64,000 nucleotides of DNA from Cliona cf. orientalis (lineage: Eukaryota; Porifera; Demospongiae; Clionaida; Clionaidae): positions 1,922,001-1,986,000 of the forward strand of contig OZ005694.1 in the NCBI GenBank assembly GCA_963930775.1, read 5' to 3'. Below the pieces are notes generated by a model, which saw nothing but the letters and a program-made list of their open reading frames with translations, had not been told where the DNA came from and made no database searches. This document shows positions 9,301-56,007 of this stretch, in pieces; positions within the stretch are counted from its first letter, which is position 1; every line of letters starts with the position of its first letter. A program made the translations under genes and the position numbers.

Positions 9301-10118
9301 TGCACCTGTTGTGATGTCAAGTGAAGATTTGAGCTCAGGGTGAGTGGTTTCTAGATACACTGCGGTACTTGACGATAGTTTTGAAGAGAGGATCCCTAAA
9401 ATACTGTCACTAAAGTTTACATTTCCTGTTAATGTAGCTACACTAGAATATGCCATTATAATTGATTGACTTTGATGTCTGTAGGACTGAAATGTGCTAT
9501 TGCTCACAATTATCCCATCACTAAGATTATTTATAATAAAGCAGTTTTCTTTGAATGTACAGTTATCCAGTAAAGCTTGACATTGTGTGCCTCTGGCTAT
9601 AATAAGAATAAAAGAAATGAGGTCGTTAATGCCAGAGTAGCCATAGAGGTTGGAGCTTTTCACTGTAATGTGGCTCGTTTTAAGCTTTATTGCAGGACAT
9701 CTCATTGTCAGGGTTGTAATATTCACCAAGCTGACATTGATTAATTGAATAAGTGTGCACTTTGGTTCAACAACTTGCATACCAAATTGATGGTCAATGA
9801 CGACATTCTCTCTGGATTCTGCAGCTCCTTTCATGATAAATGAGTGAAAATTTTGTACAGTCAAGTCCTTTGTATAGTTGTGGACTCCACACATGAATAT
9901 CAGTGTTATATTGACATAGTTTTGTAAAAAGAACTCACTGCTATGCTCAGCTAAGTGGTCCATTGTGTGACAGAGCTGACTAGGTGGGCAGCTGCTGTTT
10001 CCAGGGCAAGAGCTGAGAGGCTCCGTTGGTGAGACGTAATACACCCCATCCTTCTTGGTCTCAGCTAGCACATAAATCAGTCCAAATAGTAAGATAGGCG
10101 AGACAAAGAAGTCTTCAT
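6380..10118 (-). pseudogene. copy A: beta-helix multi-pass membrane protein
   Basis: Homologous over its whole length to copies H and K: N-terminal Cys module, GGA-repeat ectodomain, CxxC juxtamembrane module, multi-pass membrane part and acidic tail. It belongs to the type-1 N-terminus group (LAET...YYVSPTEPL). The likely start is the ATG at 10116-10118. Lesions visible by comparison with siblings: a one-base loss in the signal peptide, a small deletion with stops near 8960-8990, a tandem duplication of about 110 bp around 8440-8590, a frameshift near 7975, and four extra bases near 6760. Open pieces are 8989-10071, 8538-8819, 7928-8464 and 6699-7967. The membrane core (about 6770-7500) is well preserved. 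It is a pseudogene that could still donate sequence in gene conversion. Confidence 0.85.
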
Positions 10119-10204
10119 TTTTTCACTTTATCAGCTCTATATTTTGTCATGCAGAAGGAGCATGCACAGACACGCAGCTATATATCTAGTGAGGTTGACT
10201 TAAG

Positions 10205-12837: not shown

Positions 12838-15800
12838 TTATTTTGTGTATTTGGTAGAAGCTGGCATGGTAATGGGGTGAGGAGTATCATTGATCAGCGG
12901 TTCAAGTTCAGGATCTTCGATTCGCTCATGAGCGATGTCATCATAATCGATGATATCATTGTCTTGATCTCGTCTGCACCTCCAACCAGCACTGAGACAA
13001 GGCTTGATCAAACTCCACACAACAATGACGCAGAATTGAGTAAAGGTGATTCCAATTGACACCATAAGCAATTTTGACCTTGAGTCAGTAGACTCCCACC
13101 TGTACAGAGTTCCAGAACTCATAAGGTTCAGCAAGGTAGCACTTTTCAGAACACTCACATCTATTCGCTTGTAAACATTCTCAATTGATATGAAGGAAAG
13201 TAAGAAAGCTATGAACAGGAATAGTGCAAACACATTCAATTCTGGATTATCCACTGAAGTAACTGTCAATAGAACCAGGAGTATTCCTCGAATAAGAAGC
13301 ATTGCTCCAATTGAACCAGTATCGATGCTTGTCCTTCAAAGGAGAGAAGTAAGTATCGTAGACAGAGGCTAGCTTGTTGATCCACTTGAGTGGCCGTAGA
13401 TGAGATACTCTCCTCAAAAACTGAATGAACAGAAGCAGGAGTGTATAGGGAAGCCACAAGAATATAAAAGTAGCAATGGCTGCTAAGAAAAGGTAAAGGT
13501 GAAGGTGCTGACAGTAGCGTAGGTTTCCATCGAGGTACCACACAGCATAGGAGGTGTTCTGTGGGTACTGTGCTATTACTGCAACTGAGGTGGCATCTAT
13601 CACAGTACGAAGAAGCTTCATGTAAGATAGAAGGAAGAGTGTGGCTAGAAGAGGAACAGCTCTGCTACCGATGAGGTTAGTGAGGCGAGAGGAGTAGCGA
13701 CAAGCAACAATGATAACACCGGCAATGGCCCAGATGTAGAATGGGAATAGAAACTGCAGCCATGTCTTCTGATAAGCATCCAGTCCAACAAAGAAGCAGG
13801 TCTTGATTCCAAAATCCAAGTTGAGCCAGGCAATAAAGACTTGAAGAAATGTGAATAAATTATTTGCTCCTATGTCTGAAGGAAAGAGTATAATCTTGTA
13901 AGCCCATACAATGTTAGCATAGAAGATGACTCCATTAATGAATCCTTGAGTGGCAGTGAGGTTGAGTGCAAAGATAAAGAACACAACTAAAACACCAGCA
14001 GCAGCAAAGGCAAGCAGGAGCGCCACATTATGACTATTGGGACATTCAATGCACTGAGAAGATCCAATTGCAAGGCTTAAGCTGTCCTTGCAGGTACCAC
14101 ACAAGATGCCGGTTCGGTTGGAGGCACACTGCTTGCTGGGATCACCTCCAATGTTGACTATCTTCGTACCTGACTTGCAGTAACTTAGTGGACAGAATTT
14201 GTTGTACATGATACCTGATCCAGTGCTATGACCCTCATAGAAGGTTACATTCACCCACACAGTGCCGTTCCACTGCAGGAGACCAGTTTTATTTTTTACT
14301 AAACAACTGAAGCCAAGACAGGATAACAGCTGCATGTAGTTTCGTCATGATTTAGAGTCAGTCCTGGAGGGCAGCCTGGGAGCAAGGTGATATTTATGAG
14401 AACTGGGGTTGGTAGGAGGTCAATATCGATACAACCATGATGATTATATGAAACACAATTAGATATTCATTCCTTGATAAAATAATTTTCATAGTAGAAA
14501 ATATTATACTCTGTTGATTCATTGCTAATGATAGCAGATACTGGCAGAGATGACGTTTGCAACAACAAAAGTTCATAATCACGTTTTGAGTAAACTGTAT
14601 AGTTGATAGGAGCACATTTTTTACTGTCCATTACCTGTTGCAATTTGTCTTGTTTTGAGAGAGAATCTGAATAAAGGGATCTGGCATGAATTGTACCAAC
14701 TGTAGTGCCAAAGTCATAACCCACTATGCATGCAGATAATGTGATGATTTCACCACGATAAACACAGATATCAGTGAAAATGTATGAGATATTAGCACAC
14801 TGTGGTTTACCATTGGAGTCACAGAGACACACACGCTGAGGAGCAGAGGATACAGGGGACAGGGTCTCGTTGAGGCCAGGGTCAAAGGAGATGTTAAGTT
14901 CATGGTAGGAATTTTCACTTGGAAAAAGACAGTGGGGTTTTCCTTGTTCATTCAGGAATTCTATGAACTGTGCAGAACATGAAGTATCCCTTATACTTGC
15001 TCCATATATGTGGTGACCAACACCGCGTTGTGCATAGTTTCCTGTAAAAGATATTTTAGCGGAGTAGTCTGTGATTATGAATATACAAGGATATGAAGAC
15101 TGAGAATACACCGCACCACCAACATCAAATGCTGTGTTATTGATAAATTGTATACTCGACTGATATCCCACTGTGGTCACGAGTAATGATGGCATGATAC
15201 TATAGAGAGCACCTCCTTGAAATGCAGAGTTATTGAAAAGGAGTAATTTGGAATAATTACTAATAATGATAAAGGGGTGAGCAACATATTGTATGTAAAT
15301 TGCACCACCTTTCAATTGTGCAGAATTCATAGTGAAATTTACTGACTTATTAGTGTTGATAATCATGGTTCCATAAGAAGAATGTATTGCTCCTCCTCCA
15401 TACGATACTCTATTGTTGTAAAATTCAACACCACTTGTATTCACATGAACAGTTGAATTCATTAACTGCAGAGCTCCTCCAAGCTTTCCAGAATTGTTAC
15501 TGAAAATCAGGTTCGCTTCACAGTCAACAATCAATGTTGCACTCGAGAGCCTAATCGCTCCACCTCGTGTGGCATGGTTGTATGCAAATATCACAATATC
15601 ATATGATTCAGCACCCACAGTGATCATTCGACCAAGCATGGCCATTGCTCCATCGTTCACATCATTGGTACTGTTATTCATAAAGACAGCCCTTACTTTA
15701 GCACCATATGATTCATTGCCTATAGTGATCATTCCATGTGACATGAACACCGCTCCACCATAATATGCAGCATTATTCATAAAGACCACCCTTGCTTTAG

Positions 15801-16685
15801 CACCAATGTGCATCATTGAATAATACCCATACACTGCTCCTCCAAATTTGTTACGCTTTAGGTTGATAAAGTACACAGTTGCACCAGTTATGATGTTAAG
15901 TGAAGATTTGAGCTCAGGGTGAGTGCCGTTTAGGTACACTGCTGTGCCTGATGAAGAGTGAATCAGTATAGTACTATTGGTAAAGTTTACATTTCCTGCT
16001 AATGTTACTTCACTAGAAAGGGCAGCGATAATTGAATGTCATTGATGTCTGTAGGACTGAAATGTACTGTTGCTCACAGTTATCCCATCACCTAATAAAA
16101 CAGTTTTCTTTGAATGTACAGTTGTCCAGTGAAGCTTGTGAGCCTCTGCCTGTAATATTGATGAAGGATAAGGTTTCATTTTTGCCAGGATAGCCATAGA
16201 GGTTGGAGCTCTTCACTGTAATGTGGCTCTCTTTAAGCTTTATTGCAGGACATCTCATTGTTAGGGTTGTGATGTTCACAAAGCTGACATTGAAGAACTG
16301 AGTTAATGTGCATTTGGGTTTACTACCTTCCATACCGAACTGATGGTCAATGATGACATTCTCTCTGGATTCTGCAGCTCCTTTCATGACAAATAAGTGA
16401 AAGTTTTGTACAGCCAAGTCCTTTGTATAATTGTGGACTCCACACATGAATATCAGTGTTACATTGACATGGTCTGGTGAAAAGAACTCACTGCTATGTT
16501 CAGCGAAGTAATCCATTGTGTGACAGAGCTGACCAGGTGGGCAGCTGCTGTTTCCAGGGCAAGAGCTGAGAGCCTGGCTCTGTTGGTGAGACGTAATGGA
16601 TCACATTCTCCTTAGTCTCAGCTAGTACATTAATCGATCCAAATATTAAGATGGAGGAGAGAAAGAAAGTCTTCATTTTATTCAT
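12838..16685 (-). pseudogene. copy B: beta-helix multi-pass membrane protein
   Basis: Full-length relative of H and K with type-1 N-terminus. ATGs are at 16683-16685 and 16674-16676; the second aligns with copy A. A clear hydrophobic signal peptide ends near VLA. Lesions: a 4-base insertion near 16577 (after SPTEP), a deletion of about 11 bases near 16090, an in-frame TGA near 14468 where sibling E has CGA, a 10-base loss near 14310, and a 4-base insertion near 13310. Long open pieces are 14467-15939 (GGA repeats, variable patch), 13247-14335 (Cys module, membrane segments) and 12838-13302 (last membrane segments and acidic tail ending KYTK). It contains at least ten GGA-type ectodomain repeats, slightly more than H, with an extra unit near 15600-15770. 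Not translatable as one protein. Confidence 0.85.
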
Positions 16686-19262: not shown

Positions 19263-19751
19263 AAATTTTGTGTACTTTGTCAACTTAACAAACTTCGGTG
19301 GGGGAGGAGCAGTGTATGGGGATGGTGCAACGATCGATGCATATTGGTGCTAAAGCAAGAGTGATCTTTATGAATAATACTAGTACTGTTAGTGGGGGTG
19401 GAGCGGTGGGCATGTCGGATGGAATAATCACAGTAGCTGCTGAATCATCTGTGATATTTACATACAACCATGCCTCACCTGGTGGAGCAGTTTTGCTTGA
19501 TAGTGCAACATTATAATTATTGACAGTGAAGCAAACCTGATTTTCAGCCATAATACTGCAGAACTGGAGGAGCTCTAGGGTTACATAATTTAATTGTTCA
19601 TGTGAACACAAGTGGTATCAAATTTTATAACAACAGGGCGTTAGTTGGAGGAGCAATAGATTCTTTTTATGGAACCATGATTATCAACACTAATAAATCA
19701 GTAAATTTCACTATGAATTCTGCAAAAGTGAAAGGTGCATGGTGCAATTTA
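19263..19751 (+). pseudogene. copy D: inverted ectodomain fragment, 5' part
   Basis: The only family piece on the plus strand. It begins in the region equivalent to H residue 278 (VYFVNLT) and runs through several GGA repeats (HIGAKARVIFMNN, GGAVGMSDGIITV, GGAVLL, NTSGI.FYNNRA). Small indels break the frame. It stops at the fold-back element; the continuation (TATAGAAATAGGTGTCCA) resumes at 30364-30393. Its orientation is opposite to the neighbouring duplicated flank, so this piece was inverted before or during duplication. Confidence 0.8.
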
Positions 19752-19816
19752 AACAGTATCCATTTAAGATCCGGAATATTTTTTTTCCGGATTCTGTAAA
19801 AATTTACACTTTAATG

Positions 19817-20540
19817 AACCGAGGGTAGCTTAGGATCTAAGCCACCCTCGGCTTAGGATCTAAGCCAACCTCCGCTTAGCTTAGAATCTAAGCCAGTACC
19901 ATCAGCTTAGGATCTAAGCCAACCTCCGCTTCGCTTAGAATCTAAGCCAGTACCATCAGCTTAGAATCTAAGCCACCCTCCGCTTAGGATCTAAGCCAAC
20001 CTCCGCTTAGCTTAGAATCTAAGCCAGTACCATCAGCTTAGAATCTAAGCCACCCTCCGCTTAGGATCTAAGCCAACCTCCGCTTAGCTTAGAATCTAAG
20101 CCACCCTCCGCTTAGGATCTAAGCCAACCTCCGCTTAGCTTAGAATCTAAGCCAGTGCCATCAGCTTAGGATCTAAGCCAACCTCCGCTTAGCTTAGCCA
20201 GTACCATCAGCTTAGGATCTAAGCCACTAGTATCTAAGCCACCCTCCGCTTAGGATCTAAGCCACCCTCCGCTTAGGATCTAAGCCAACCTCCGCTTAGG
20301 ATCTAAGCCACTAGTATCTAAGACAACCTTGGTTTAGAATCTAAGCCAACCTCAGCTGCTTAGGATCTAAGCCACTAATATCTAAGACAACCTTGGCTTA
20401 GAATCTAAGCCACCTCAGCTGCTTAGGATCTAAGCCACTAGTATCTAAGACAACCTCAGCTTAGGATCTAAGCCATTCTCAGCTTAGCATTTAAGCCAGT
20501 TCCATCAGCTTAGGATCTAAGCCAGTCATGACTTGGGAAT
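19817..20540. repeat. mini-palindrome array, left arm
   Basis: About 30 copies of a unit of 20-26 bp. The core is GCTTAG-GAT/AAT-CTAAGC, itself an inverted repeat, linked by CACCCTCC, CAACCTCC or CAGTACCATCA spacers. Variant spacers occur in blocks, indicating local unit expansion. Confidence 0.9.
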
Positions 20541-20999
20541 TACAGCTGAGGATCTAAGTCACCCCCAATGTTGGCACAATAGCTTGCCTTATAATTAAGC
20601 CACAAACTACTTGAGCATAACCACTAGCCTACTTGAGATACAAACCACGTGACGTGGTCAGCAGCTCATCACCAAGACCATTAATTAAAGTATGTACCTC
20701 AGTGTACCTGAGCACTATTGTTACATTGTATGCTGTTGACTTCTATGCAGGGATTTTTTTGTTCATTTGCATTTACTATAATGTATTTTCAAGTTATGTT
20801 ATGAACATACACCTATTTTGGTGAATTTTAATAAAATCCCTTTTCTTGAAATCAGTCAATTGGCAATGCATGATGATACAATAGGGGACAATTATGATAA
20901 CTACCATAATAATATTAAAACTTGCAAGATTTAGTGTGTTGAATGATGCTAATCAATAACTAGGAATAAATCCAGTGCTTATTAAATCTGTGCAATGTA
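20541..20999. other. unique spacer in left arm
   Basis: Non-repetitive sequence whose inverted counterpart lies at about 29225-29535 (CCACGTGACGTGGTCAGCAG-like against CTGCTGACCACGTGG). No gene. Confidence 0.6.
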
Positions 21000-23900
21000 C
21001 ACATATAGATGAGGATTTTGAGTGTAACTATTTCGGTATAGTACACATCTTGCAGCATTCTTGGTCTCATTTGTACACCCCACACTTTTTAGGTACCAAA
21101 CCCATACCAGTACATTTGTTCTTGTGTCTATAACCATAGTCTAGAGTGGTGTAAACAGTAGGCATGGCATTGGTGACTTCTGTGTGTGTGAGGATGAGCA
21201 TTTGTATAATTATACTTCAATGTTATTGTACACATCTTGTAGCTTTCTTGGTCTAATTTGTACACCCCACACTTTCTAGGTACCAAAGCCATACCAGTAC
21301 ATTTGTTCCTGTGTCTGTAACCATAATCTAGAGTGGTGTAAACAGTGGGCATGGCATTGGTGACTTTTGAGTGTGTGAGGATGAGCATTTTGTGTATACT
21401 TCATGTCAATCGATACTGTACACATTTTGTAGCTTTTGGTCTCATTTGTACACCCAACAGTTTCTGGGCACCAATATCAAATCAGTACCTTTCTTCTTGT
21501 GTCTATAACCATAATCTAGAGTGGTGTAAACAGTGGACATGGTATTGGTGACTTCTGCGTGTGTGCATTCTGAGAATTTTCCATGCAATCATCTACATGT
21601 ATACATAGTACACATTTCGAAGCATTTTAGCTCTCAATTCTTCACATAGCATCCTTTAAGTTCCAAACTTGATCAGCACCCTTATCTTGATGTTAGCAAT
21701 CATACATCTGAGTTATATTGACTGGCGATGTGATTGAGGCATGTTCTGTGCATGTGAGTATGAGAATATCTTGTGCACATGCATTCACAGTAATCGGTAC
21801 AATTATTATAGCTTTTTAGCTCTCAATTTCACATACTACATCTCTGGAGTGCCAGACTTGATCAGTATCTTTAATTTATTTTGATGTCTTTTATCATAAC
21901 CTAGAGTGGTGTAAACAGTAGGCATGGCATTGGTGACTTTTGAGTGTGTGAGGATGAACATTTTGTGTGTACTTCAAGTTAATCGATACTGTACACATCT
22001 AGTAGCTTTTTTGGTCAAATTTGTACACCCCACACTTTCCTAGTATCAAAATCAGACCAGTACCTTTATTTTGATGTCTATATTCATAATCTATAGTGGT
22101 GTAAACATTGGACATGGTATTGGTGACTTCTGTGTGTGTGAGGATGAGCATTTTGTGTGTACTTCATGTCAATCGATGCCGTACACATCTTGTAGCTTTT
22201 ATGGTCAAATTTGTACACCCCACACTTTCCTAGTATCAAAACCAGACCAGTATCTTTATTTTGATGTCTATAACCATAATCTAGAGTGGTGTAAACAGTG
22301 GACATGGTATTGGTGACTTCTGTGTTTGTGAGGATGAGCGTTATTTTAGTGTGTACTTCATGTCAATCGATGCCGTACACATCTTGTAGCTTTTTTGGTC
22401 AAATTTGTACACCCCACACTTTCCTAGTATCAAAACCAGACCAGTACCTTTATTTTGATGTCTATATTCATAATCTATAGTGGTGTAAACAGTGGACATG
22501 GTATTGGTGACTTCTGTGTGTGTGAGGATGAGCATTATTAATTTTTAGTGTACTTCATGTCAATCGATGCTGTACACATCTTGTAGCTTTTTTGGTCTAA
22601 TTTGTACACCCCACACTTTCCAAGTATCAAAACCAGACCACTACCTTTATTTTAATGTCTATATTTATAATCTATAGTGGTGTAAACATTGGACATGGTA
22701 TTGGTGACTTCTGTGTTTGTGAGGATGAGCATTATTTTAGTGTGTACTTCATGTCAATCGATGCCGTACACATCTTGTAGCTTTTTTGGTCAAATTTGTA
22801 CACCCCACACTTTCCTAGTATCAAAACCAGACCAGTACCTTTATTTTGATGTCTATATTCATAATCTATAGTGGTGTAAACAGTGGACATGGTATTGGTG
22901 ACTTCTGTGTGTGTGAGGATGAGCATTATTAATTTTTAGTGTGTACTTCACGTCAATCGATGCTGTACACATCTTGTAGCTTTTTTGGTCTAATTTGTAC
23001 ACCCCACACTTTCCAAGTATCAAAACCAGACCACTACCTTTATTTTGATGTCTATATTTATAATCTATAGTGGTGTAAACATTGGACATGGTATTGGTGA
23101 CTTCTGTGTTTGTGAGGATGAGCATTATAGTGTGTACTTCATGTCAATCGATGCTGTACACATCTTGTAGCTTTTTTGGTCAAATTTGTACACCCCACAC
23201 TTTCCTAGTATCAAAACCAGACCAATACCTTTATTTTGATGTCTATATTCATAATCTATAGTGGTGTAAACAGTGGACATGGTATTGGTGACTTCTGTGT
23301 GTGTGAGGATGAGCATTATTAATTTTTAGTGTGTACTTCATGTCAATCGATGCTGTACACATCTTGTAGCTTTTTTGGTCTAATTTGTACACCCCACACT
23401 TTCCAAGTATCAAAACCAGACCACTACCTTTATTTTGATGTCTATATTTATAATCTATAGTGGTGTAAACATTGGACATGGTATTGGTGATTTCTGTGTG
23501 TGTGTATTCTAAGTTTCCATATTATGTGCATACATCAGTATTTGGTACAATTTTCATAGCTTTTAAGCTCTAAGATCTTCACACATCATCTCTGAAGTTC
23601 CAAATTTGATCAGTACCTTTGTCTTGATGTTAAAAATCATATTTCTGAGTTTCGTCATCTGGCGATGTGGTTGAGGCATGTTCTGTACATGTGAGTATGA
23701 GAATTTCCTGTGTACCTGCATGCATTCACAGTAATAGGTCCGATTTTCACAGCATTTCAGCTCTAATATCTTAATATAACATCCCTGAAGTTCCAAACTT
23801 GGTGAGTACCATTGATTTGATGTTAATAATCATATTTCTGACTTTCGTTAACTAGCGATGTGGTTGAAGCATGTTATGCACATGTGAGTATGAGAATTAC

Positions 23901-24660
23901 CTATAGCATATGCATGCATTCACAGTTACTGTAATCGATGCAATTTTAGTAGCTTTTTAGCTCTCAATTCCACATACAACATCTCTGGAGTACCAGACTT
24001 GATCAGTACCTTTGTTCTTGTGTCTATAACCTTAATCTAGAGTGGTGTAAACAGTGGACATGACATTGGTGACTTACTCTGCGTGTGTATTCTAAGAATT
24101 TTCCATGTGTGTACACACATTCACAGTAACCAAGGTACAATTAACCTTCATAGCTTTTTAGCTCTTAATTCTTCACATATTATCTATAAATTTCCAAACT
24201 TGAACAGTACCTTTATCTTCATGTCAACAATCATATTCCTGAGTTTCGTGAACTGGTGATGTGGTTGATGATTGTTCTGTACATCTGAGTATGAGAATAT
24301 CCTGTTCACATGCATTCACGGTACTCGGTACAATTTTTATAGCTTTTTAGCTCTCAATTCCACATACAACATCTCTGGAGTGCCAGACTTGATCAGTATC
24401 TTTATTTTGATGTCTATAACCATAATCTAGAGTGGTGTAAACAGTGGACATGGTATTGGTGACTTCTGTGTGTGTGAGGATGAGCATTTAGTGTGTACTT
24501 CATGTCAATCGATACTGTACACATCTTGTAGCTTTTTTGGTCTAATTTGTACACCCCATACTTTCTAGGTACCAAAACCTGACCAGTACCTTCGTTTTTA
24601 TGTCTGTATTCATAATCTAAAGTGGTGTAAACAGTAGTCAAAAGGAAAGATGGTTTATGT
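21000..24660. repeat. 187-199 bp satellite, left arm
   Basis: The landmark GTGGTGTAAACAGTGG recurs at about 21146, 21333, 21521, 21905, 22096, 22286, 22480, 22677, 22871, 23070, 23261 and 23460. Between 22286 and 23470 units alternate in two forms, giving a repeat of about 390 bp. More diverged units (words GATGTGGTTGAGGCATGTTC, ATCATATTTCTGAG) fill 21560-21900 and 23490-24400. Short reading frames here are by-products of the repeats. Confidence 0.9.
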
Positions 24661-25494
24661 ATGAGAATTCTAATCAATGGAGAATTTTTTTGTCAGTATG
24701 TTACGAGATAGGAAACACAAGCAACCTCATACAACTCAAAATCAAATTAATAAATCTTTGAACCTTAAATTATAATACGTGTATTATAATAATATCATAT
24801 AATATGGTAGGTCCAGCGTTAGATCATACACTATTGTGATTGAGCATCTATACATTATGTGGTTTTACTAGTGTGTACTTCACCTAATTGTATAAGGCAC
24901 TTGAACTACGCCATGTGTGTGCATCAACGTGTACTCTGTGGTGACCACAATATCATAATCATAGTATTAAGAGGGGCATATGCTCTGTGGAATTATGAAG
25001 TACTGCACAGAGGAAAACTACTACCAATCACTAGCTCAGTACCACCATACATGCTATTATTATGGCTGGTTCATTTTCCCTATCACTTACTTCTTAGTAT
25101 GCCTACCTTTTGGTTACATGTAGGTGTTAATTAGAGGGCATTGATCGTTTACATGATCATGTAAATATGTATACATGTGTATATGTACACATGTAGTGTA
25201 TCTATAGACAGAATTACATGTGCATGTGCACAGCACATGCACATGTAATATACATGCATATGATATGAGTGTGAAAGTAAGGTATGTGTGTACATGTACA
25301 TACCTTAAATCAAACCCAAACCTAACCCAAAGCCAACCCAAACCCAACCCAAACCCAAACCCACTCACGTCACACACACACACAAACACACTCACACACA
25401 CATGCACGCACTTCATAGCTTAATTGGAAATTAACATCCTCTCTCACAGCCTATTTAGCACAACATGTGAGCACATACAGAGGTAAAGTAAAAA
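24661..25494. other. loop of the fold-back element
   Basis: Single-copy sequence between the arms. No recognisable gene; the longest plus-strand frame (24859-25134) has no family features. It contains palindromes at 25148-25290, a degenerate AACCCA array at 25312-25364 and a short CACA stretch after it. Confidence 0.6.
25148..25290. repeat. cluster of palindromes at element centre
   Basis: TTTACATGATCATGTAAA is a perfect 18-bp palindrome near 25148-25165. The stretch 25213-25249 is a perfect hairpin with 17-bp arms (ATTACATGTGCATGTGC) around ACA. AAGGTATGT...ACATACCTT near 25280-25306 is a third. Confidence 0.85.
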
Positions 25495-28400
25495 TGTGGC
25501 GTGTACAAATGAGACTAAGAAAGCTACAATGATAATATTATGTGTACAGTACCGATTAATAATATTATATGAAGTACACACAAAATACTCATCCTCACAC
25601 ACACAGAAGTCACCAATGCCATGTCTACTGTTTACACCACTCTAGATTATGGTTATAGACATAACACCAAAGTTACTGATCAAGTCTGGTGCTCCAGAGA
25701 TGTTGTATGTGGAACTGACACCTAAAAAGCTATAAAAATTGTACTAATTATACTGTGAATGCATGTGTACAGGAAACTCTCATACTCACATGTGCAGAAC
25801 ATGCCTCAACAGCATCGCCAGTCAATGAAACTCAGAAATAATAAGATGATTAACATTAAAATAAAGATACTGATCAAGTTTGGAACTTCAGGGATGTTGT
25901 GTGAAGAATTGAGAGCTAAAGAGCTACAAAAATTGTAGGATTACTGTGAATGTGTGTACACATGGAAAATTCTTAGAATACATACACACAGAAGTCACCA
26001 ATGTCATGTCCACTGTTTACACCACTCTAGATTATGAATATAGACACAAGAATAAAGGTACTGGTATTGCGTTGGTACCTAAAAAGTGTGGGGTGTACAA
26101 ATGAGACCATAAGAAAGCTACAAGATTTGTACATGTACATGCAGTATCGATTGATATGAAGTACACACAAAATGCTCATCCTCTCACACACAGAAGTAAC
26201 CAATACAATGTCTACTGTTTATACCACCCTAGATTATGAATATAGACATCAAAACAAAGTTACTTGTATGGTTTAAATGCTTAAAAAGTATGGGGTGCAC
26301 AAATGAGACCAAGAGAGCTACAAGATGTGTATAGTATCGATTAATATGAAGTACACACAAAATGCTCATCCTCACACACACAGAAGTCACCAATATCATA
26401 TCCACTGTTTACACCACCCTAGATTATGGTTATAGACACAAGAACAAAGGTACTGATCAAGTCTGGTACTCCAGAGATGTTGTATGTGGAATTGAGAGCT
26501 AAAAAGCTACTAAAATTGCATCGATTACAGTAACTGTGAATGCATGCATGTGCTATAGGTAATTCTCATACTCACATGTGCATAATATGCTTCAACCACA
26601 TCGCTAGTTAACGAAAGTCAGAAATATGATTATTAACATCAAATCAATGGTACTCACCAAGTTTGGAACTTCAGGGATGTTATATTAAGATTTTAGAGCT
26701 GAAGTGCTATAAAAATAGTACCGATTACTGTGAATGTATGCATGCAGGTGCATAAGATATTCTCATACTCAGATGTACAAAACAATCCTCAATCACATCG
26801 CCAGTTGACTAAACTCAGAAATATGATTGTTAACATCAAGACAAAGGTGCTGATCAAATTTGGAGCTTCAGAGATGATGTGTGAAGAATATAGAGCTTAA
26901 AAGCTTTGAAAATTGTACCAAATACTGATGTATGCACATAATATGGAAACTTAGAATACACACGCAGAGTAAGTCACCAATACCATGCCCACTGTTTACA
27001 CCACTATAGATTATGAATATAGACATCAAAATAAAAGTACTGATCTGGTTTTGATACTAGGAAAGTGTGGGGTGTACAAATTTGACCAAAAAAGCTACAA
27101 GATGTGTATGGTATCGATTGACATGAAGTACACACAAAATGCTCATCCTCACACACACAGAAGTCACCAATACCATGTCCACTGTTTACACCACTCTAGA
27201 TTATGAATATAGACATCAAAATAAAGGTACTGATCTGGTTTTGATACTTGGAAAGTGTGGGGTGTACAAATAAAACCAAAAAAGCTACTAGATGTGTACA
27301 GTATCGATTAACTTGAAGTACACACAAAATGTTCATCCTCACACACTCAAAAGTCACCAATACCATGCCTACTGTTTACACCACTCTAGGTTATGATAAA
27401 AGACATCAAAATAAAGATACTGATCAAGTCTGGCACTCCAGAGATGTTGTATGTGGAATTGAGAGCTAAAAAGCTATAAAAATTGTACCGATTACTGTGA
27501 TTGCATGTGCACAGGATATTCTCATACTCACATGTACAGAACATACCTCAATCACATCGCGAGTCAACGAAACTCACAAGTATGATTATTAACATCAAGA
27601 CACAGGTACTGTTCAAGTTTGAAGTTTAGAGATGATGTTGAAAGAATTAAGAGCTAAAAAGCTATGAAAGTTGTATTTTGGTTACTGTGAATGTGTACAT
27701 GTACACACAATGTCATGGAAAATTCTTAGAATACACATGCAGAGTAAGTCACCAATATCATGTACACTGTTTACACCATTCTAGATTAAGGTTATAGACA
27801 CAAGAACAACTGTACTGGTATGGTTCTAGTACCTAGAAAGTGTGGAGTGTACAAACGAGACCAAGAAAGCTACAAGATATGCACAGTACCGATTGACATG
27901 AAGTACACACAAAATACTCATCCTCACACACTCAAAAGTCACTAATGTACCATGTCTACTGTTTACACCACTCTAGATTATGGTTATAGACACAAGAACA
28001 AATGTACTGATCAAGTCTGGTACTCCAGAGATATTGCATGTGGAATTGAGAGCTAAAAATCTCTAAAAATTGCACCCATTACTGTGAATGCATATGCACA
28101 GGATATTCTCATACTCACATATGCAGAACATTCCTCAACCACATCGCCAGTCGACGAAACTTAGAAATATGATTGTTAACATTGAGATAGAGTTACTGAT
28201 CAAATTTGGAACTTCTGGGATGTCGTGTGAAGAATTTAGAGCTCAAAAGCAAGAAATGTGTATATACGTACTACATGTAGCTGATTGCATAGAAAATTCT
28301 TAGAATACATACAAAGAAGTCACCAGTACCATGTCCACTGTTTACACCACTCTAGATTATGAATATAGACACAAGAACAAAAGTACTGGTCTGACCTTGG

Positions 28401-29225
28401 CACTTAGAAAGTGTGGAGTGTACAAATGAGGCCAAGAAAGCTACGAGATGCATGTGTACAGTATCGATTAACATGAAGTACACATAAAATGCTCATCCTC
28501 ACACACACAGAAGTCACCAATGTCATGTCCACTGTTTACACCACTCTAGACTATGGTTATAGACACAAGAACAAATGTACTGGTATGGTTTTGGTACCTA
28601 GAAAGTGTGGGGTGTACAAGTGAAACCAAAAAGCTACAATATGTGTACATGTAGTACCGATTAATATGAAGTAGTATACACACAAAATGCTCATCCTCAC
28701 ACACACAGAAGTCACCAATACCATGTCTACTGTTTACACCACTCTAGATTATAATTATAGACACAAGAACAAAGCTACTGGTCAAGTCTTGTACTCCAGA
28801 GATGTTGTATGTGGAATTGAGAGCTAAAAAACTATGAAAATTTTACCGAATAATATACATACATGTGCACATGAATTCTCATACTTGCATGTGCAGAACA
28901 TGCTTCAACCACATCGCCAGTCAATGAAACTTAGAATTATGATTGTTAACATCAAGACAAAGGTACTGTTCAAGTTTGGAACTTCAGAGATCATGTGTGA
29001 AGAATTGAGGGCTAAAAAGCTATAAAAATTGTACCGATTACTGTGAATGTACGTATATGTACGTACATAGAAATTTAGAATACACAGACACAGAAGTCAC
29101 CAATGCCATGTCTACTGTTTACACCACTCTAGATTATGAATATAGACACAAAAACAAAGGTACTGGTCTAAGTTTGTTACCTAGAAAGTGTTGGGTGTAT
29201 AAATGAGACCAAAAAGTTACCATAA
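25495..29225. repeat. 187-199 bp satellite, right arm
   Basis: Inverted counterpart of 21000-24660, read here as GTTTACACCACTCTAGATTATG with GAGGATGAGCAT complemented. It interleaves the same two unit types. Units here look more diverged from each other than those in 22286-23470 of the left arm. Confidence 0.9.
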
Positions 29226-29534
29226 CAAAGGTGTGTACTAGCTGTACTGGACTGATTTCAAGAAAGGGGATTTAATTATTAAAACGTACCAAAATATGTG
29301 TATGTTTAATACAACATAACTTGAAAATATTTAATATTATCATAATAAATGCAAATGAACAAAAAAAATGGATTGAAACAAGATGATTTGTGACAAAATT
29401 GTCTCACAAACACGAACAATAATAGTTTAATGGTCTTGGTGGTGAGCTGCTGACCACGTGGCTTGTATCTCAAGTAGGCAAAGTGGTTATGCTCAAGTAG
29501 TTTGTGGCTTATAAGGTAAGCTATTGTGCCAACA

Positions 29535-30300
29535 TCAGTGGCGGCTTAGATCCTAAGCTGTAATTCCTACTCAAAGGATCTGAGCCACTCTCCACTTACA
29601 TGTAGCGCTATTCTGAGCTTAAAATCTAAGCCAGAGCCATCAGCTTAGGATCTAAGCCAACCTCGGCTTAGGATCTAAGCCACCATCAAGCCAGCGCCAT
29701 AAATAGGATCTAAGTTACCCTCTGCTTAGGATCTAAGCCAATCATGATTTAATTCTATGCAGAGGTTGGCTTAGATTCTACGCTGAGGGTGGCTTAGATC
29801 CTAAGCTGATGGCACTGGCTTAGATTCTAAGCTGAAAATGGCTAAGCGGATTGAGAGTGGCTTAGATCCTAAGCTGATGGTACTGGCTTAGATTCTAAGC
29901 TAAGCGAAGGTTGGCTTAGATCCTAAGCGGAGGGTGGCTTAGATCCTAAGCTGATGGCACTGGCTTAGATTCTAAGCTGAAAATGGCTAAGCGGAGAGTG
30001 GCTTAGATCCTAAGCCAAGTGTGGCTTAGATCCTAAGCAGAGGTTGGCTTAGATCCTAAGCGGAGGGTGGCTTAGATTCTAAGCTGATGGTACTGGCTTA
30101 GATTCTAAGCGAAGCGGAGGTTGGCTTAGATCCTAAGCTGATGGTACTGGCTTAGATTCTAAGCTAAGCACAGGTTGGCTTAGATCCTAAGCGGAGGGTG
30201 GCTTAGATCCTAAGCGGAGCGTGGCTTAGATCCTAAGCTGATGGTACTGGCTTAGATCCTAAGCCGAGGTTGGCTTAGATCCTAAGCCACCCTCGGTTCT
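29535..30300. repeat. mini-palindrome array, right arm
   Basis: Inverted counterpart of 19817-20540: GGCTTAGATCCTAAGC units with GGAGGGTGG, GAGGTTGG and TGATGGTACTG spacers. The last unit and tip (CACCCTCGGTTC, then TTTACAGAATCCGG) mirror the left end closely. Confidence 0.9.
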
Positions 30301-30363
30301 TTAAAGTGCAAATTTTTACAGAATCCGGAAAAAAAATATTCCGGATCTTAAATGGATACTGTT

Positions 30364-30393
30364 TTTATATAGAAATAGGTGTCCAACCCTCTA
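30364..30393 (+). pseudogene. copy D fragment, 3' part
   Basis: About 30 bases (TATAGAAATAGGTGTCCA) that continue the copy D ectodomain frame interrupted at 19751. Homology fades after 30393. Confidence 0.6.
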
Positions 30394-30580
30394 TCTGCAC
30401 ATGTAATTTTGTGGTTGTCTTGATTTCATGCCACTTTCTAGATTATTAACCATTTAATTTGGCATTAGAAAATCTCATTAACTGAATATTGCAAATTCCT
30501 AACAATTGTAAACAACTTTTCGTGGAAAGTAGTTAATTATGTGGAGGAGTCATGCAGATACAATCATAGACTACAATAAT

Positions 30581-30962
30581 ATGTGACCCGCTATGAGAAA
30601 AGGGACCACTTGGGATATTTTTTTTCGTTTTCTAATAATTGCTAAAATGTGTAGAAGATTATTATTTTTCACTTTTCTGTTTTTTTGGTCTATTAGAAAA
30701 TGTAGATTTTTGGCTTCACAGTGATATGCTATGTTCAACTTTTAAACTATAGTTATGGGCATTCTTATTTACTTGGGCGCGTAAATTTCAATTAAAAATG
30801 AGCATTTTCCGAAAAACAAATAATATACCTACCCGTAACTCGGCTATTTTTTCATGAAACTTGCACCATTGGATTCAGTACACATAGAGCAATCAATCCA
30901 TGCCAAAAACTCATTTCTTATAAAATATCCCGAGTGGTCCCTTTTCTCATAGCACGTCACAT
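30581..30962. mobile_element. 382-bp MITE, GTGAC...GGGACCA ends
   Basis: The ends ATGTGACCCGCTATGAGAAA and its inverted copy at 30930-30962 extend about 40 bp inward to TTGGGATATTTT/AAAATATCCCGAG. The interior is AT-rich without coding capacity. Related ends occur at 2297-2331, 57905-57940 and 59785-59820. The target duplication is not clear in AT-rich flanks. Confidence 0.75.
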
Positions 30963-30963
30963 A

Positions 30964-31905
30964 TAAACAATAATAATATATACTATAAGTGTAGCAATAC
31001 ACTAAAGATGAGTACCTAAAAGATTTAATTGACCATCATAGTAAGAATAATTTACCCTAGCTCCTCTGCATGTATACATGCAATTTTCTTACTGAAAAAA
31101 TAAACTAAGTAACCAGTGAGTTTCCAATGAACTCTATTATATGTCAAAATGAAATTGAGATAACCAACTACTGGGTTGAAATGACTGTTATATTATTAAA
31201 CAGTCTGGCTGCATGAAGACACACATAATATTATATAAATATTTACGACTATATCTACAAAAATTAATGTAGTAGTGAATATATTAATTATAATATACCT
31301 GCATCAGTGGATAGGCACATACACAGAGTGGCTACAGTGCTGTACGTTACTTTATCTACATTTATAGAACAAACAGGTTTAGAAATGCTTTCTGCATGGT
31401 TTGCTGGTCACATTTTGTCAATTTTAGTGAAGAGGACCCTGTCAATTTAGTAGTGCTATAGGGTAAACTATTTGAAATGTTACATAGTGGCAAGCCTTCG
31501 GCAACTCATATGCATGCTCCTGTATATACATGACATTGTATACAATAGTATCCTGCATGACTCAGGTATAATATCATTCCAACTTGCAAGGCCATTCATC
31601 CTGAATAACTACATTGGCCTTATATGAGAAATGGGACTGCTTGGAGTAGCTACACTGTAGCTAGTATGAAGCAAATTATCCAACATATTTACTACAAAAG
31701 TAATATAGTTGATGAGCATACTTGTACCAATTAATGCATACATAGCTATAATATAACAGGAATAAACATGGCCTCCGGGTATGGACTTAGCTACATGTAT
31801 AGCTATAATACATACTATACTACCAACATGTAGAGTCTCAATTGAGTAATTTATAGCTTTTCTGATACTTTTACTAGCAAATGTATGCCAACTGATACAC
31901 TCTAT
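30964..31905. other. intergenic with duplicated block
   Basis: No gene. The part 31270-31480 (CCTGCATCAGTGGATAGGCAC, GGTCACATTTTGTCAATTTT) is a duplicate of 52735-52935 beside copy H, and 31620-31860 resembles 53455-53670. This flank was therefore copied from, or with, a type-2 gene neighbourhood. Confidence 0.5.
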
Positions 31906-31911
31906 AATATG

Positions 31912-32265
31912 AGAGACCGGAGATAGGGTCTCATTGAGACCAGGGTCAAAGGAGATGTTAAGTTCACCATTAAGGCCTTCATATAATATATCAGATCAGT
32001 GAGGTTTTCCTTGTTCATTCACTAAACTTATGAAATCTATAGAACATGAAGTATCCCTTATACTTGCTCCATACGTGTGGTGACCAACACCATGTTGTGC
32101 ATAATTTTCTTTGAAAGATATTATTTCAGCGGAGTAGTCTGTGATCATGAATATACAAGGTGGTGAAGACTGAGAATACACTGCTCCACCAACATCAAAT
32201 GCTGTGTTGTTGATAAACTGAATACTCGACTGATATCCCACTGTGGTCACGAATAATGATGGTAT
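31912..32265 (-). pseudogene. copy E': internal ectodomain fragment
   Basis: Encodes the segment from the MPSLLVTTVGYQSSIQF region through GGAVYSQSSPPC, the RDTSCS variable patch and the GKPH motif, stopping in the SPVSSAP region. It is truncated at both ends: at 32265 it meets a G-tract repeat also seen at 18640, and at 31912 unrelated sequence. It lies about 500 bp downstream of copy E. Confidence 0.75.
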
Positions 32266-32293
32266 GCATGGGTGTAGATAACTTTTTCGTCGT

Positions 32294-32317
32294 GGGGGGG
32301 GGGGGGGGGGGGGGGGG
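32294..32317 (+). repeat. poly-G tract, 24 bp
   Basis: Lies in a dispersed repeat (GTAGATAACTTTTTCG...GTTGCCACGCCCAATT) shared with 18640-18760, where the G run is shorter. Confidence 0.8.
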
Positions 32318-32757
32318 CTTGTGTTGCCACGCCCAATTTTGTGACACCACCTACTTATTATTGGATTATCTAATATTACCCTAGTGGTGGTGTTATAAAT
32401 AAATTAAGTGGCTCATCAATATTTAATGTTGGCAAGAAAGTGCAACTTGACTACTAAATTAAACGTACCGTGCTAACTATACTAAAAATGACTAATAAAT
32501 TGTTGCCTGCTATTGCTGTGTTGCAAATTTAGCTAGACTGTGAAAGCGCGCAATAATTATTATTCCTCAAAACTTTATGCTATACACAGCAGTGAAAACA
32601 AGATTACGTGATGGAAGGGGGAGAACTCGCTAACAATAGTTAGTCACATAAAATTATTTAGTAGCTACCTACTAAATGAAAATGTAAAATTATAACTTTA
32701 TAGCAAAAAATTATTCATGACAAATATTTGCAGTTACAGCTTATCTTGGTAGCTACT

Positions 32758-35700
32758 TCATTTTGTGTATTTAGCAGAAGCTGGCATGGTAATAGGCCAA
32801 GGAGTATCATTGATCAGTGGTTCAAGTTCAGGATCTTCAATTCGCTCATAAGCGATATCATCATCATCAATGACATCATGGCCTTGATTTTGTCTGCACC
32901 TCCAACCAGCACTGAGACAAGGCTTGATCAAACTCCAAACAACAATGACACAGAATTGAGCAAAGGTAATTCCAATCGACACCATAAGCAATTTTGATCT
33001 TGATTCGATAGATTCCCATCTGTATAGAGTTCCAGAACTCAAGATAATAAGGTTCAGCAAGATAATGCTTTCTAGAATTCTTACATTTACTCGCTTGTAG
33101 ACATATTTAACAGATGTGAAGAAAAATAAGAAAGCTATGAAAAGGAAGAGTGCAAATATATTCAGTTCAGGATCGTCTACTGAAGTCACTGTCAATAGAA
33201 CCAGGAGTACTCCTCGAACAAGAAGCATTGCTCCAAACCATGCAGTATTGGTTTTTGTCCTTCAAAGGAGAGAAGTAAGCATCGTAGACAGGGGCTAGCT
33301 TGTTGATCCACTTGAGTGGCCTTAGATGAGACACTCTCCTCAAAGGCTGAATGAACAGAAGCAGGAGTGTGTAGGGAAGCCACAGAAACACAAGAGTAGC
33401 AATGGCTGTTACGAAAAGGTAAATGTGAGGGTGCTGACAGTAGCGTAGGTTTCCATCGAGGTACCACACAGCATAGGAGGTGTTCTGTGGGTACTGTGTT
33501 ATTACTGCAACTGAAGTGGCATCTATCACAGTACGAAGGAGCTTCATGTAAGATAGAAGGAAGAGTGTGGCTAGAAGAGGAACAGCTCTACTGCCGATGA
33601 GGTTAGTTAGGCGAGAGGAGTAGCGGCAAGCAACAATGATAACACCAGCAATGGCCCAGATGTAGAATGGGAATAGAAACTGCAGCCATGTCTTCCAATA
33701 AGCATCCAGTCCAATAAAGAAACAAGTCTCGATTCCAAAATCCAAGTTGAGCCAGGCAATAAAAACTTGAAGAAATGTGAATGTTCCATGGCCAATGTCC
33801 GAGGGAAAGAATATTATCTTGTACGCCCATACAATATTAGCATAGAAAATTACTCCATTAATGAGTCCTTGAGTGGCAGTGAGGTTGAGTGCAAGGATAA
33901 AGAACACGAGAAGGACACCAGCAGCAGCAAAGGCAAGCAGGAGTGCCACTTTATTGCTGTTGTGACATTCAATGCACCGAGAAGATCCAATTGCCAGGCT
34001 AAAGCTGTCCATGCAGGCACCACACAGGATGCCGGTTCGGTTGGAGGCACATTGCTTGCTGGGATCATCTCCAATGTTGACTGTCTTGTTACCTGACTTA
34101 CAGTAGAGTAGTGGACAGAATCTGTTGTACAAGATACCAATGCTATTATTCTCATTGAAGGTTGCATTCACCCACACAGTGCCATTCCACTGCAGGTGAC
34201 CAGTTTTGTTTTTAACTAAACAATTGAAGCCATTGTTAGCCAATACAGGGTAACAGCTGCATGTGGTTTCGTCACGATTTAGAGTCAGTCCTGGAGGGCA
34301 ACCTGGGAGTAAAGTGATATTTATGAGAACTGGGGTTGCTATTAGGTCAATATCGATACAACCATGATGATTATATGAAACACAATTAGATATTCGATCT
34401 TTGATAAAATTATTTTCATAGTTGAAGATATCGTGCTCTGTTGATTCATTACTAATGATAGCAATTACTGGCAGAGGTGATGTTTGCAACAATAAAAGTT
34501 CATAATCACGTTTTGAGTAAACTGTATAGCTGAAAGGAACACATTTTTTACTATCAATTACCATTTGCAATTTGTCTCGTTTTGAGAGAGAATCGGAATA
34601 AAGGGATCTGGCATGGATCGTACCAACTGTAGTGCCAAAGTCATAACCCACTATGCATGCGGGTAATGTGATGGTTTCACCACGATAAACACTGGTATTA
34701 GTGAAAATGTATGAGATATTAGCACACTGTGGTTTACCATTGGAGTCACAGAGACACACACGCTGAGGAGCAGAGGATACAGGGGACAGGGTCTCATTGA
34801 GGCCAGGGTCAAAGGAGATGCTAAGTTCATGGTGGGAATTTTCGCCTAGAAAAAGACAGTGAGGTTTTCCTTGTTCATTCAGGAATTCTATGTACTGTGC
34901 AGAACATGAAGTATCCCTTTATACACTTGCTCCATACATGTGGTGACCAACACCGCGTTGTGCATAGTTTCCTGTAAACGATATTTTAGCGGAGTAGTCT
35001 GTGATCATGAATATACAAGGTGGTGAAGACTGAGAATACACTGCTCCACCAACATCAAATGCTGTGTTATTGATAAACTGAATACTCGACTGATATCCCA
35101 CTGTGGTCATGAGTAATGATGGCATCATATTATAGACAGCACCTCCTTGAAATGCAGAGTTGTTGAAAAAGAGTGATTTGGAATAATTACCAACAATGAT
35201 AGAGCATTGTACACCTGTTTCTATATAAATTGCACCACCTTTCAAGTGTGCAAAATTCATAGTGAAATTTAATGACTTATTAGTGTTAATAATCATGGTT
35301 CCATAAAAAGAATATATTGCTCCTCCTCCATATGATGCTCTATTGTTGTAAAAGTCAATACCACTTGTGTTCACATGAACAGTTGAATCCAATAACTCTA
35401 GAGCTCCTCCAAGCATTCCAGAATTGTGGCTGAAAATCAGGTTTGCTTCACTGTTAACAATTAATGTTGCATTGTCAAGCATAATCGCTCCACCGTGTGT
35501 GGCATGGTTGTACCCAAATATCGCAATGTCATATGATTCAGCACCCACAGTGATCATTCCACCAAGCATGGCCATTGCTCCATCGTTCACATCAGTGGCA
35601 CTGTTATTAATAAAGACCGCCCTTACTTTAGCACCATATGATTCAGTGCCTATAGTGATCATTCCATGTGACATGAACACCGCTCCACCCCAATATGCAG

Positions 35701-36628
35701 CATTATGCATAAAGATCACTCTTGCTTTAACACCAATGTGCATCATTGCATTATTCCCATACACTGCTCCTCCATGACCATCGCATGTTAGGTTAATAAA
35801 GCCCACAGTTGCACCTGTTGTGATGTTAAGTGAAGATTTGAGCTCAGGGTGAGTGCCTTTTAGATACACTGCTGTACCTGATGAACCCATTGAAGGGTAT
35901 CCAATCCCTACAGTACTATTGATAAAGTTTACATTTCCTGTTAATGTTACTTCACTAGAAAGGGCAGCGATAATTGAATGTAATTAATGTCTGTAGGACT
36001 GAAATGTACTGTTGCTTACAATTATTCCATCACTAAGATTACTCCTAACAAAGCAGTTTTCTTTGAATGTACAGTTGTACAGCAAAGCTTGTGAGCCTCT
36101 GCCTGTAATATTGATGAAAGATAAGCTTTCATTTATGCCAGGATAGCCATAGAGGTTGGAGGTCTTCACTGTAATGTAGCTCTCTGTAAGATTTATTGCA
36201 GGACATCTCATCGTCAGGGTTGTGATGTTCACAAAGCTGACATTGAAGAACCAAATAACTGTGCACTTGGGTTTACCAAAAAGCTGATGATCCATAATGA
36301 CATTTTCTCTGGATTCTGCAGTTCCTTTCATGACAAATGAGTGTAGATTTTGTACAAATAAGTGCTTTGTATAGTTGTGGATTCCACACATGAATAACAG
36401 TGTTACATTGACGTGGTCTAATGAAAAGAACTTACTGCTATGTTCGGCTAAGTAGTCCATTGTGTGACAGAGCTGACCAGGTGGGCAGCTGCTGTTTGCA
36501 GGGCAATAGCTGAGATGCTTTACTGGTTTGACATGGTAGATTGTACCCTCAGTTAGCCTGACACAAATTGATCCAAATATCAAAATTAAGAGAAGAGATA
36601 GCAGCCTCATTATCGAGATATTTTTCAC
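32758..36628 (-). pseudogene. copy E: beta-helix multi-pass membrane protein
   Basis: Nearly full-length. The likely start is MRLL at about 36610 (an upstream ATG is at 36628), followed by a hydrophobic signal peptide and the type-2 N-terminus (RLTEGTIYHVKPVK, then CPANSSCPPGQLCHTMDYL). One frame runs from 36628 to 33167 with only two interruptions: a TAA near 35984 (H has CGA) and a TAA near 34919 caused by a three-base insertion in SVRDTSC. A four-base insertion near 33240 then shifts the frame before the last membrane segments, which stay open to the KYTK stop at 32758. The GGA ectodomain, variable patch, CGAC...CIEC-type Cys module and membrane core are intact. It decayed recently; about three changes separate it from an open frame. 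Confidence 0.85.
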
Positions 36629-36639
36629 AGGCTAGCTAT

Positions 36640-37539: not shown

Positions 37540-39268
37540 TCATTTTGTGTATTTAACAGAAGCTGATGTGGTGATGGGCTGAGCAGTATCAATGATCAGT
37601 GGTTCAAGTTCAAGATCTTCAATTTGCTCATGAGCGATGTCATCATCATCGATGACATCATGGCCTTGATTTTGTCTACACCTCCAACCAGCACTGAGAC
37701 AAGGCCTTATCAAACTCCACACAACAATGACACAGAATAATTATTGAGCAAAATTGATTCCAGTAGACACCATAAGCAAGTTTGACCTTGAGACAGTAGA
37801 TTTCCATCTGTAGCTACAGAGTTCCAGAACTCAAGACAATAGGATTTAGCAAGGTAGAACTTTCTAAAACTCTCACGTCTAGTCGCTTGTAAACATTTTT
37901 GATTGATATGAAATAAATTAAGAAGACAATAGATAGGAACAGTGCAAATACATTAATCCAGTTTTTGATTGTCCACTGAAGTTACTGTCAACAGAACCAG
38001 GAGCACTCTTCGAACAAGAAGCATTGCTCCAAACCAGTATCGGTGCTTATCCTTCAAAGGAAAGAAGTAAGCATTGTAGATAGGGGCTAGTTTATTGATC
38101 CACTTGAACAGCCTCAGATCATACACTCGCCTCAAAGGCTGAATGAACAGAAGGAGTGTGTAGGAAAGCCACAGGAACACAAGAGTACCAATGGCCACTA
38201 TAAAAAGGTAAATATGAGGGTGCTCGGATTATCGTAGATTTCCGTTAAGGTACCACACAGCATAGGAGGTGTCCTGTGGGTACTGTGTTATCACTGCAAC
38301 TGATGTGGCATCTATCACAGTACGAAGGAGCTTCATGTAAGATAGAAGGAAGAGTGTGGTTAGGAGAGGAACAGCTCTGCTACCGATGAGGTTAATGAGG
38401 CGAGAGGAGTAGCGACAAGCAACAATGATAACACCAGCAATGGCCCAGATGTAGAATGGAAATAAAAACTGCAGCCATGTCTTCAAATACGCATCCAGTC
38501 CAATAAAGAAGCAAGTATCGATTCCAAAATCCAAGTTGAGCCAGGCAACAAAAACATGAAGAAATGTGAATAAGTAGTTTCTCCAGTGTCTGCGGGAAAG
38601 AGTATTATCTTGTAGGCCCATACAATGTTAGCATAGAAGATGGTTCTGTTAATGAGTCCTTGAGTGACAGTGAGGTTGAGTGCAAGGAAAAAGAACACAA
38701 GGAAAACACCAACAGCAGCAAAGGCAAGCATGAGCGCCACGTTATGACCGTTGGGACATTCAATGCACCGAGAAGATCCAATTACCAGGTTAAAGTTGTC
38801 CATGCAGGCACCACACAGGTTGCCGGTTCGGTTGGAGGCACACTGTTCGCTGGGATCATCTCCAATGTTGACTGTCTTTTTGCCTGAATTGTAGTAGAGT
38901 AGGGGGCAGAATTCGTTGTACATGATACCAGACTGGGTGCTATGACCCTTATTGAAGGTTGCGTTGACCCACACAGTGCCGTTCCACTGCAGGAGACCAG
39001 TTTTGTTTTTCACTAAACAACTAATGCCATTGTTAGCCAAGACAGGATAATAGCTGCATTTAGTTTCATCATGATTTAGAGTCATTCCTGGAGAGAAATC
39101 TGGGAGTAAGGTGATATTTATGAGAACTGGGGTTGCTAGGAGATCAGTATCGATACAACCATGATGATTATATGAAACACAATTAGATATTTGTTCCTTG
39201 ATAAAAAAAAATTTTCATAGTACAAGATATCATATTTTGTTGATTCGTTGCTAATGGTAGAAGATACT
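37540..39268 (-). pseudogene. copy F: membrane half, 5' deleted
   Basis: Retains the region from the TSSLPVS stretch through the Cys module, membrane segments and acidic tail, in four broken pieces (38483-39085, 38229-38621, 37953-38198, 37540-37722). Frameshifts lie near 38600, 38215 and 37950, and there is extra sequence near 37740. At about 39268 homology jumps directly to the type-1 upstream flank (GCTAGTGTGGCTCAGTAGC, also at 16747), so a deletion removed roughly the first 650-700 codons and joined the promoter side to the middle of the gene. Confidence 0.85.
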
Positions 39269-52419: not shown

Positions 52420-52529
52420 TGTTGGAAAGTGTATATCTTCTATCTTCACAGTTTATGTGACAACGACCAAGAGATAAGTGCTTCTCAAGAAAAGTGGGAG
52501 ATCCTGTAAAGGTGCATGCACAGACATGC

Positions 52530-54275: not shown

Positions 54276-54289
54276 TACTACCAACGGAG

Positions 54290-56005: not shown

Positions 56006-56007
56006 AT

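Follow-up and report, generated by a model that had tools for sequence, protein, structure and literature searches.

A pair of long inverted arms facing each other across a short loop raises a simple question: is the structure a transposable element that entered the genome as one unit, or is it the product of a local duplication, a rearrangement, or an error of assembly? Such a structure occupies positions 19752-30363 (10,612 bp) of the window, meaning the whole 64,000-nucleotide stretch of Cliona cf. orientalis DNA analyzed here. Specifically, comparison of the window with itself reveals a left arm (19752-24640; 4,889 bp) and a right arm (25491-30363; 4,873 bp) inverted around a central loop (24641-25490; 850 bp). 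Both arms begin on the outside with an AT-rich tip, followed inward by a mini-palindrome array, then a spacer, and finally a satellite with units of ~190-200 bp. A sequence-only reading had proposed two arms of ~4.9 kb around a loop of ~0.8 kb, each arm built of tip, palindrome array, and satellite. Self-comparison bears out the arms, the loop, and their order, and adds the spacer between array and satellite.

The element reads AACAGTATCC...GGATACTGTT, with TTTA duplicated on either side. Very probably, it is a single non-autonomous fold-back DNA transposon, seen here in one copy and moved by a cut-and-paste transposase acting in trans. The basis for this reading is fourfold: exact ends, a target duplication, mirror arms, and no transposase-like open reading frame (ORF) of at least 90 codons. 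The features that define fold-back elements are present. Long inverted terminal repeats make up most of the element (4,889 + 4,873 of 10,612 bp), tandem repeats lie within them (each arm has a palindrome array and a satellite), and the insertion is accompanied by a target-site duplication (TTTA, read from a paralogous empty site).

The insertion site

Genes with Chlam_PMP repeats occur in sponges. The window contains a tandemly duplicated family of such genes, with a Pfam match in two of the four proteins scanned. Because the host target belongs to this family, neighboring copies can be used as empty sites. The interrupted copy is on the + strand and is decayed; none of its three forward frames is free of stops. 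Its left part (19269-19751, + strand; tblastn and blastn) corresponds to approximately amino acids 268-433 of the gene, and its right part (30368-30397, + strand; blastn and paralogue alignment) continues the same fragment for ~30 bp more before homology is lost. Relatives of the host gene were also sought in viral_contigs; two stretches matched and neither was confirmed.

In blastn comparisons, the left flank (19340-19751) matches 35640-35226, and the right flank (30364-30395) matches 35229-35198 with 87.5% identity over 32 positions. The two matches overlap by 4 bp at 35226-35229. These bases, TTTA, are present once in that paralogue and twice around the element, at 19748-19751 on the left and at 30364-30367 on the right; the same flank alignments, together with an alignment of the joined flanks, define the right copy. 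Of six paralogous stretches that overlap the left flank, five extend to the insertion site and the sixth ends at 19598. When aligned with the joined flanks, all five site-reaching stretches are without the insert, and, as judged by eye, three carry TTTA at the site. To the right of the site, 23-28 of 39 columns agree between the joined flanks and the five paralogues. Over 119 columns just 50-57 agree, and thus the right-hand target homology covers only ~30 bp. Homology ends exactly at the left end of the element and restarts exactly at the right end with a 4-bp overlap, showing that this is one insertion. As read from a single empty site, the 10.6-kb element is inserted as one unit and has duplicated four target bases. 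The ends that had been proposed from the letters, 19752 and 30363, prove exact to the base in the flank alignments to uninterrupted paralogues, and the accompanying suggestion of a fold-back transposable element gains strength from the empty site and the 4-bp duplication.

Replication template switching could, in the absence of any transposon, produce a simple inverted duplication, and it too would yield a loop between long inverted arms. Such an event, however, is not expected to leave a 4-bp target duplication, nor flanks whose junction corresponds exactly to continuous sequence in uninterrupted paralogues. Nor does the mirror identity of the element ends continue into host sequence: it stops one base outside, at 19751/30364, and the host sequence is not mirrored. 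The exact empty site and the duplicated TTTA argue strongly against this origin, to which we assign only a very slight chance.

The orientation of the host copy brings up another possibility, one described for Galileo: a fold-back structure located at an inversion breakpoint, as a hybrid of two insertions that recombined ectopically. Specifically, in a tblastn search of the window with one copy of the gene family, the interrupted copy alone has its matches on the + strand; the others are all on the - strand. Against a hybrid, both flanks derive from neighboring bases within a single gene copy and share one orientation, the two copies of TTTA match, and 483 bp of the inverted fragment precede the element on its left. 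The loss of homology ~30 bp to the right of the site leaves room for a separate breakpoint near 30397. Overall, we regard the hybrid as improbable and retain the single inserted transposon.

Tips and palindrome arrays

The left tip (19752-19825, + strand) carries the terminal inverted repeat AACAGTATCCATTTAAGATCCGG... and an inner hairpin, and its counterpart on the right (30291-30363, - strand) is delimited by self-comparison. The left tip has a GC content of 0.32, and 73 of its first 76 positions are identical to those of the right tip. The near-perfect match of the tips noticed earlier holds: 96 of the 100 outermost positions are identical, and the first 54 are without mismatch. Each tip spans ~74 bp, with a GC content of 0.32-0.33 compared with 0.47 in the arrays. 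Within the window, the 21-mer of the tip (at most four mismatches allowed) occurs once per strand, and only at the two ends of the element, as does a 20-mer tip core at the same tolerance. A 13-mer with at most two mismatches has one extra match, at 47466, which we take as chance. The 21-mer has no match in viral_contigs or genome_contigs, and neither does the tip hairpin in viral_contigs; these collections are viral and prokaryotic, without eukaryotes, so the null results say little.

Inward of each tip lies an array of mini-palindromes. The left array (19826-20530, + strand) is composed of GCTTAG-R-ATCTAAGC units spaced mostly 23, 26, or 28 bp apart, with a higher-order period of 77 bp. The right array (29561-30290, - strand) contains, toward its inner end, a stretch of oppositely oriented units. 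A loose count, allowing three or fewer edits, gives 28 palindrome-unit matches on the left, the last of which run into the spacer, and 25 on the right. The first palindrome unit, at 68-100 from the end, is a 33-base near-palindrome with the outline CCGAGGGT-R-GCTTAG-GAT-CTAAGC-..CTCGG. The array repeats the core of this first palindrome, mostly in those same 23-, 26-, and 28-bp steps, and a second hairpin lies within the tip. Over the outermost span including the array, the arms agree at 81% of 614 aligned positions. When folded as single-stranded DNA, the outer 111 bases give z = -7.8 on the left and -6.4 on the right, and at neither end does any of 200 shuffles fold as well; the outer 75 bases of the left end alone give z = -3.1, with 1 of 200 shuffles as good. 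The array pattern has no match in genome_contigs or viral_contigs, both of which are without eukaryotes, so this too says little.

The notion is that a putative transposase could recognize the tip, with the palindrome repeats of each arm serving as sites along which it is loaded. This role for the array is proposed by analogy with Galileo, in which the THAP site closest to the end is ~70 bp away from it and further transposase-binding sites are present in the tandem repeats of the terminal inverted repeats (TIRs) (PMC3688188). The combination of an exact insertion and a palindrome array that starts ~70 bp from the end and continues inward makes transposase loading by arm repeats testable outside Drosophila.

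Satellites and the history of the arms

The left spacer (20531-21030, + strand), which connects array to satellite, is 77% identical over 338 aligned positions to the right spacer (29226-29560, - strand), the latter delimited by self-comparison. The left satellite (21031-24640, + strand) is made of A-type and B-type units of ~194 bp, and its boundaries are approximate to tens of bases. The right satellite (25491-29225, - strand) is its mirror. Divided at a constant phase, the satellites yield 18 whole units of 187-206 bp in each arm (L01-L18 and R01-R18). This division omits the false anchors at arm positions L2248 and R3073, both short-spaced, and in each arm it places one unit start halfway across a gap as long as a dimer. 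The satellite had been called nucleosome-length, and it is so in the sense of the nucleosome repeat, not of the core. By eye, A-type units contain GTGTAAACAGT and the left junction reads TTTAAACAGTATCC, a resemblance that may be chance.

Unit order is conserved between the arms. Seven cross-arm pairs of units are reciprocal best matches, at 84-98% identity, and all seven fall in mirror order. The collinear chain of units scores 1.046, compared with a mean of 0.67 (sd 0.09) for shuffled unit orders, and none of 2000 shuffles reaches it; the opposite unit order scores 0.468. When a single unit from L06-L12 is kept, the chain score is the same and again 0 of 2000 shuffles reach it. The conserved order argues that an already satellite-bearing segment gave rise to the arms by inverted duplication. 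Its significance is that it provides evidence of an existing array duplicated in mirror image and then altered in one arm.

The alterations can be located. L06-L12 form a block of seven similar units, present in the left arm only and 94-99% alike among the best matches listed, and the four units closest to R11 are L06, L12, L10, and L08. We infer that the partner of R11 was amplified in the left arm to give the block. Identity jumps between neighboring satellite pairs, a pattern that suggests patchy gene conversion. The nearest relative of a unit lies in its own arm for 15 of the 36 units and in the other arm for 21, and units are on average more alike within the left arm (mean identity 0.73) than between arms (0.71). 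A plausible sequence of events is that inverted duplication of a preformed satellite-bearing segment produced the two arms, which would then have diverged and exchanged patches by gene conversion, with unequal exchange changing unit number, for example in L06-L12.

The same features bear on whether the structure is real. Inverted repeats containing tandem arrays are hard to assemble, and a hairpin or chimeric read could have folded one arm into two. A duplicated read, however, would give near-identical arms, and those here are imperfect mirrors: they differ in their spacers and in their paired satellite units to the extents given above, one block of similar units exists only on the left, and a locally inverted stretch exists only in the right array. 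Mirror-ordered units combined with arm-specific unit changes, L06-L12 in particular, argue against a folded assembly error, which we consider highly unlikely.

With respect to the source of the satellite, its consensus unit has no match in the tip or array at E values up to 5 and only short matches in the spacers and loop, the best being 12 bases in the loop (E 0.043). Birth of the satellite from the tip, as in Tetris, a fold-back transposon of Drosophila virilis and D. americana, is therefore unsupported. A 23-mer of the satellite has no match in viral_contigs, a collection without eukaryotes that says little on this point. According to the part of a review consulted, satellites can arise from arrays inside transposable elements. 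We speculate, tentatively and with more doubt than belief, that the element represents an undescribed giant fold-back family that prefers a 4-bp target of its own. The arms could be two-tier repeat nurseries: the outer palindromic arrays would load transposase, and the inner nucleosome-length satellite, mirrored and amplified within the element, could seed free genomic arrays.

Coding capacity and relationship to known transposons

The central loop (24641-25490) is without recognizable coding capacity: neither of its two whole ORFs of at least 90 codons has a Pfam match. Across the element, all eight ORFs of at least 90 codons (stop to stop) were scanned against Pfam; none is transposase-like and seven have no match. 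The eighth matches SCIFF below threshold (E 0.035; 14.4 bits, cut-off 27) and was set aside as chance. Rfam returned nothing at gathering thresholds, and ARAGORN found no tRNA. Since no transposase-like ORF exists among the eight, the element is most likely non-autonomous, and a cut-and-paste transposase supplied in trans would mobilize it.

Which superfamily could supply that enzyme? Target duplications in the P superfamily, to which Galileo belongs, are 7-8 bp long; here the duplication is 4 bp and no transposase is seen, so this superfamily is set aside. Mutator, proposed for Tetris, is rejected because its duplications, in the text consulted, are 8-10 bp, compared with exactly 4 bp here. 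Ginger1 and Ginger2 are rejected because the TGTNR termini given for them in the portions consulted differ from the AACAG ends here. Judged by its sequence features, the element has its best lead in Kolobok, and we treat it as a lead only. In the sections of the sources consulted, Kolobok elements, which inhabit many hosts including sponges, have 4-bp TTAA duplications and 5'-RR...YY-3' ends (PMC9587614, PMC6004289). The element shares the 4-bp length and has AA...TT termini, a weak agreement of two bases only; its duplication is TTTA rather than TTAA. According to the same sections, Xmix, a non-autonomous Xenopus Kolobok, contains an amplified internal repeat, Xstir, comparable to the internal repeats here, whereas Xenopus Kolobok ends begin with AG and those here with AA (PMC9587614, PMC6004289). 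KolobokP solo units, as described there, have 3-5-bp duplications, but KolobokP possesses long terminal direct repeats (PMC9587614, PMC6004289), which are absent here, the tip 21-mer being confined to the element ends, once per strand. Academ (AcademX; 3- or 4-bp duplications) and CMC (including Chapaev; 2-4 bp), compared by duplication length alone and from partial descriptions, also fit; a 4-bp duplication alone does not fix the superfamily.

Among fold-back elements, FB of Drosophila melanogaster and TU of sea urchin have inverted repeats made largely of short tandem repeats. As generally described, both resemble the present element in this respect and differ in having target duplications longer than its 4 bp. 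The sources consulted, as far as their available sections extend, describe fold-back elements in flies, sea urchin, and plants (PMC4079207), and suggest that the fold-back structure arises repeatedly from different transposon lineages through loss of transposase and lengthening of the ends. In the corresponding sections on Tetris (PMC4079207), the likenesses are close: no transposase is found in either element and both are non-autonomous; both have long TIRs comprising an outer domain and tandem repeats (~220 bp in Tetris) around a non-coding middle; and tandem unit number varies, in Tetris between copies. Tetris differs in its shorter TIRs (up to 1,735 bp, versus ~4.9 kb here), in its 8-10-bp target duplication (versus 4 bp), in the palindrome array, for which those sections describe no equivalent, and in the 37 bp that its TIR-220 has in common with its outer domain, whereas no comparable similarity links satellite and tip here (PMC4079207). 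Galileo, a fold-back-like Drosophila transposon of the P superfamily, likewise has long TIRs with internal tandem repeats in the sections consulted (PMC3688188).

The sequence-only reading had regarded the composition as unlike that of known elements. That view must yield where tandem repeats are concerned, which the TIRs of Tetris and Galileo also hold. It stands for the palindrome tier and thus the two repeat tiers, for an arm length of 4.9 kb, and for the 4-bp duplication of TTTA, features not met in the portions of the literature consulted. The architecture matches that of Tetris and Galileo, and its design principle is already known. The element carries that fold-back transposon design to unusual size and elaboration.

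The tandem gene family around the element

On both sides of the fold-back element, open reading frames and tblastn reveal members of a tandemly arranged gene family, some of them fragments, on the minus strand at 6699-10122, 13247-16600, 31912-36631, 38073-39202, 49192-52452, 56007-57142, and 61986-63998. Among four proteins of this family scanned against Pfam, two carry Chlam_PMP repeats. The reading frame of one copy is open across 1,086 codons. Judged by eye, hydrophobic stretches lie close to the C-terminal end of the family's proteins. The fragment that the element interrupts (19269-19751) runs, according to tblastn, in the orientation opposite to that of the other detected copies. On the element's right side, alignment with paralogous stretches places the end of family homology at approximately 30397.

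The left junction and the satellite

The motif GTGTAAACAGT occurs, with at most two mismatches, within A-type units of the satellite that occupies both arms (21031-24640 and 25491-29225). Its likeness to the left junction of the element, TTTAAACAGTATCC, as judged by eye, is possibly due to chance.

Other repeats and MITE-like units

Two mutually inverted copies of a repeat of approximately 340 bp (5519-5850 and 54745-55084) are 83% identical, and a 73-bp minisatellite of approximately five copies spans 44680-45040. A short way to the right of the fold-back element is a MITE-like unit of 386 bp (30579-30964; inverted ends of 43 bp, 93%), which has short stretches in common with 2177-2329. A 325-bp imperfect palindrome (75%), likewise MITE-like, lies at 53958-54282. 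Finally, the 382-bp stretch at 40037-40418, with inverted ends of 123 bp that are 99% identical, is perhaps a recent MITE.
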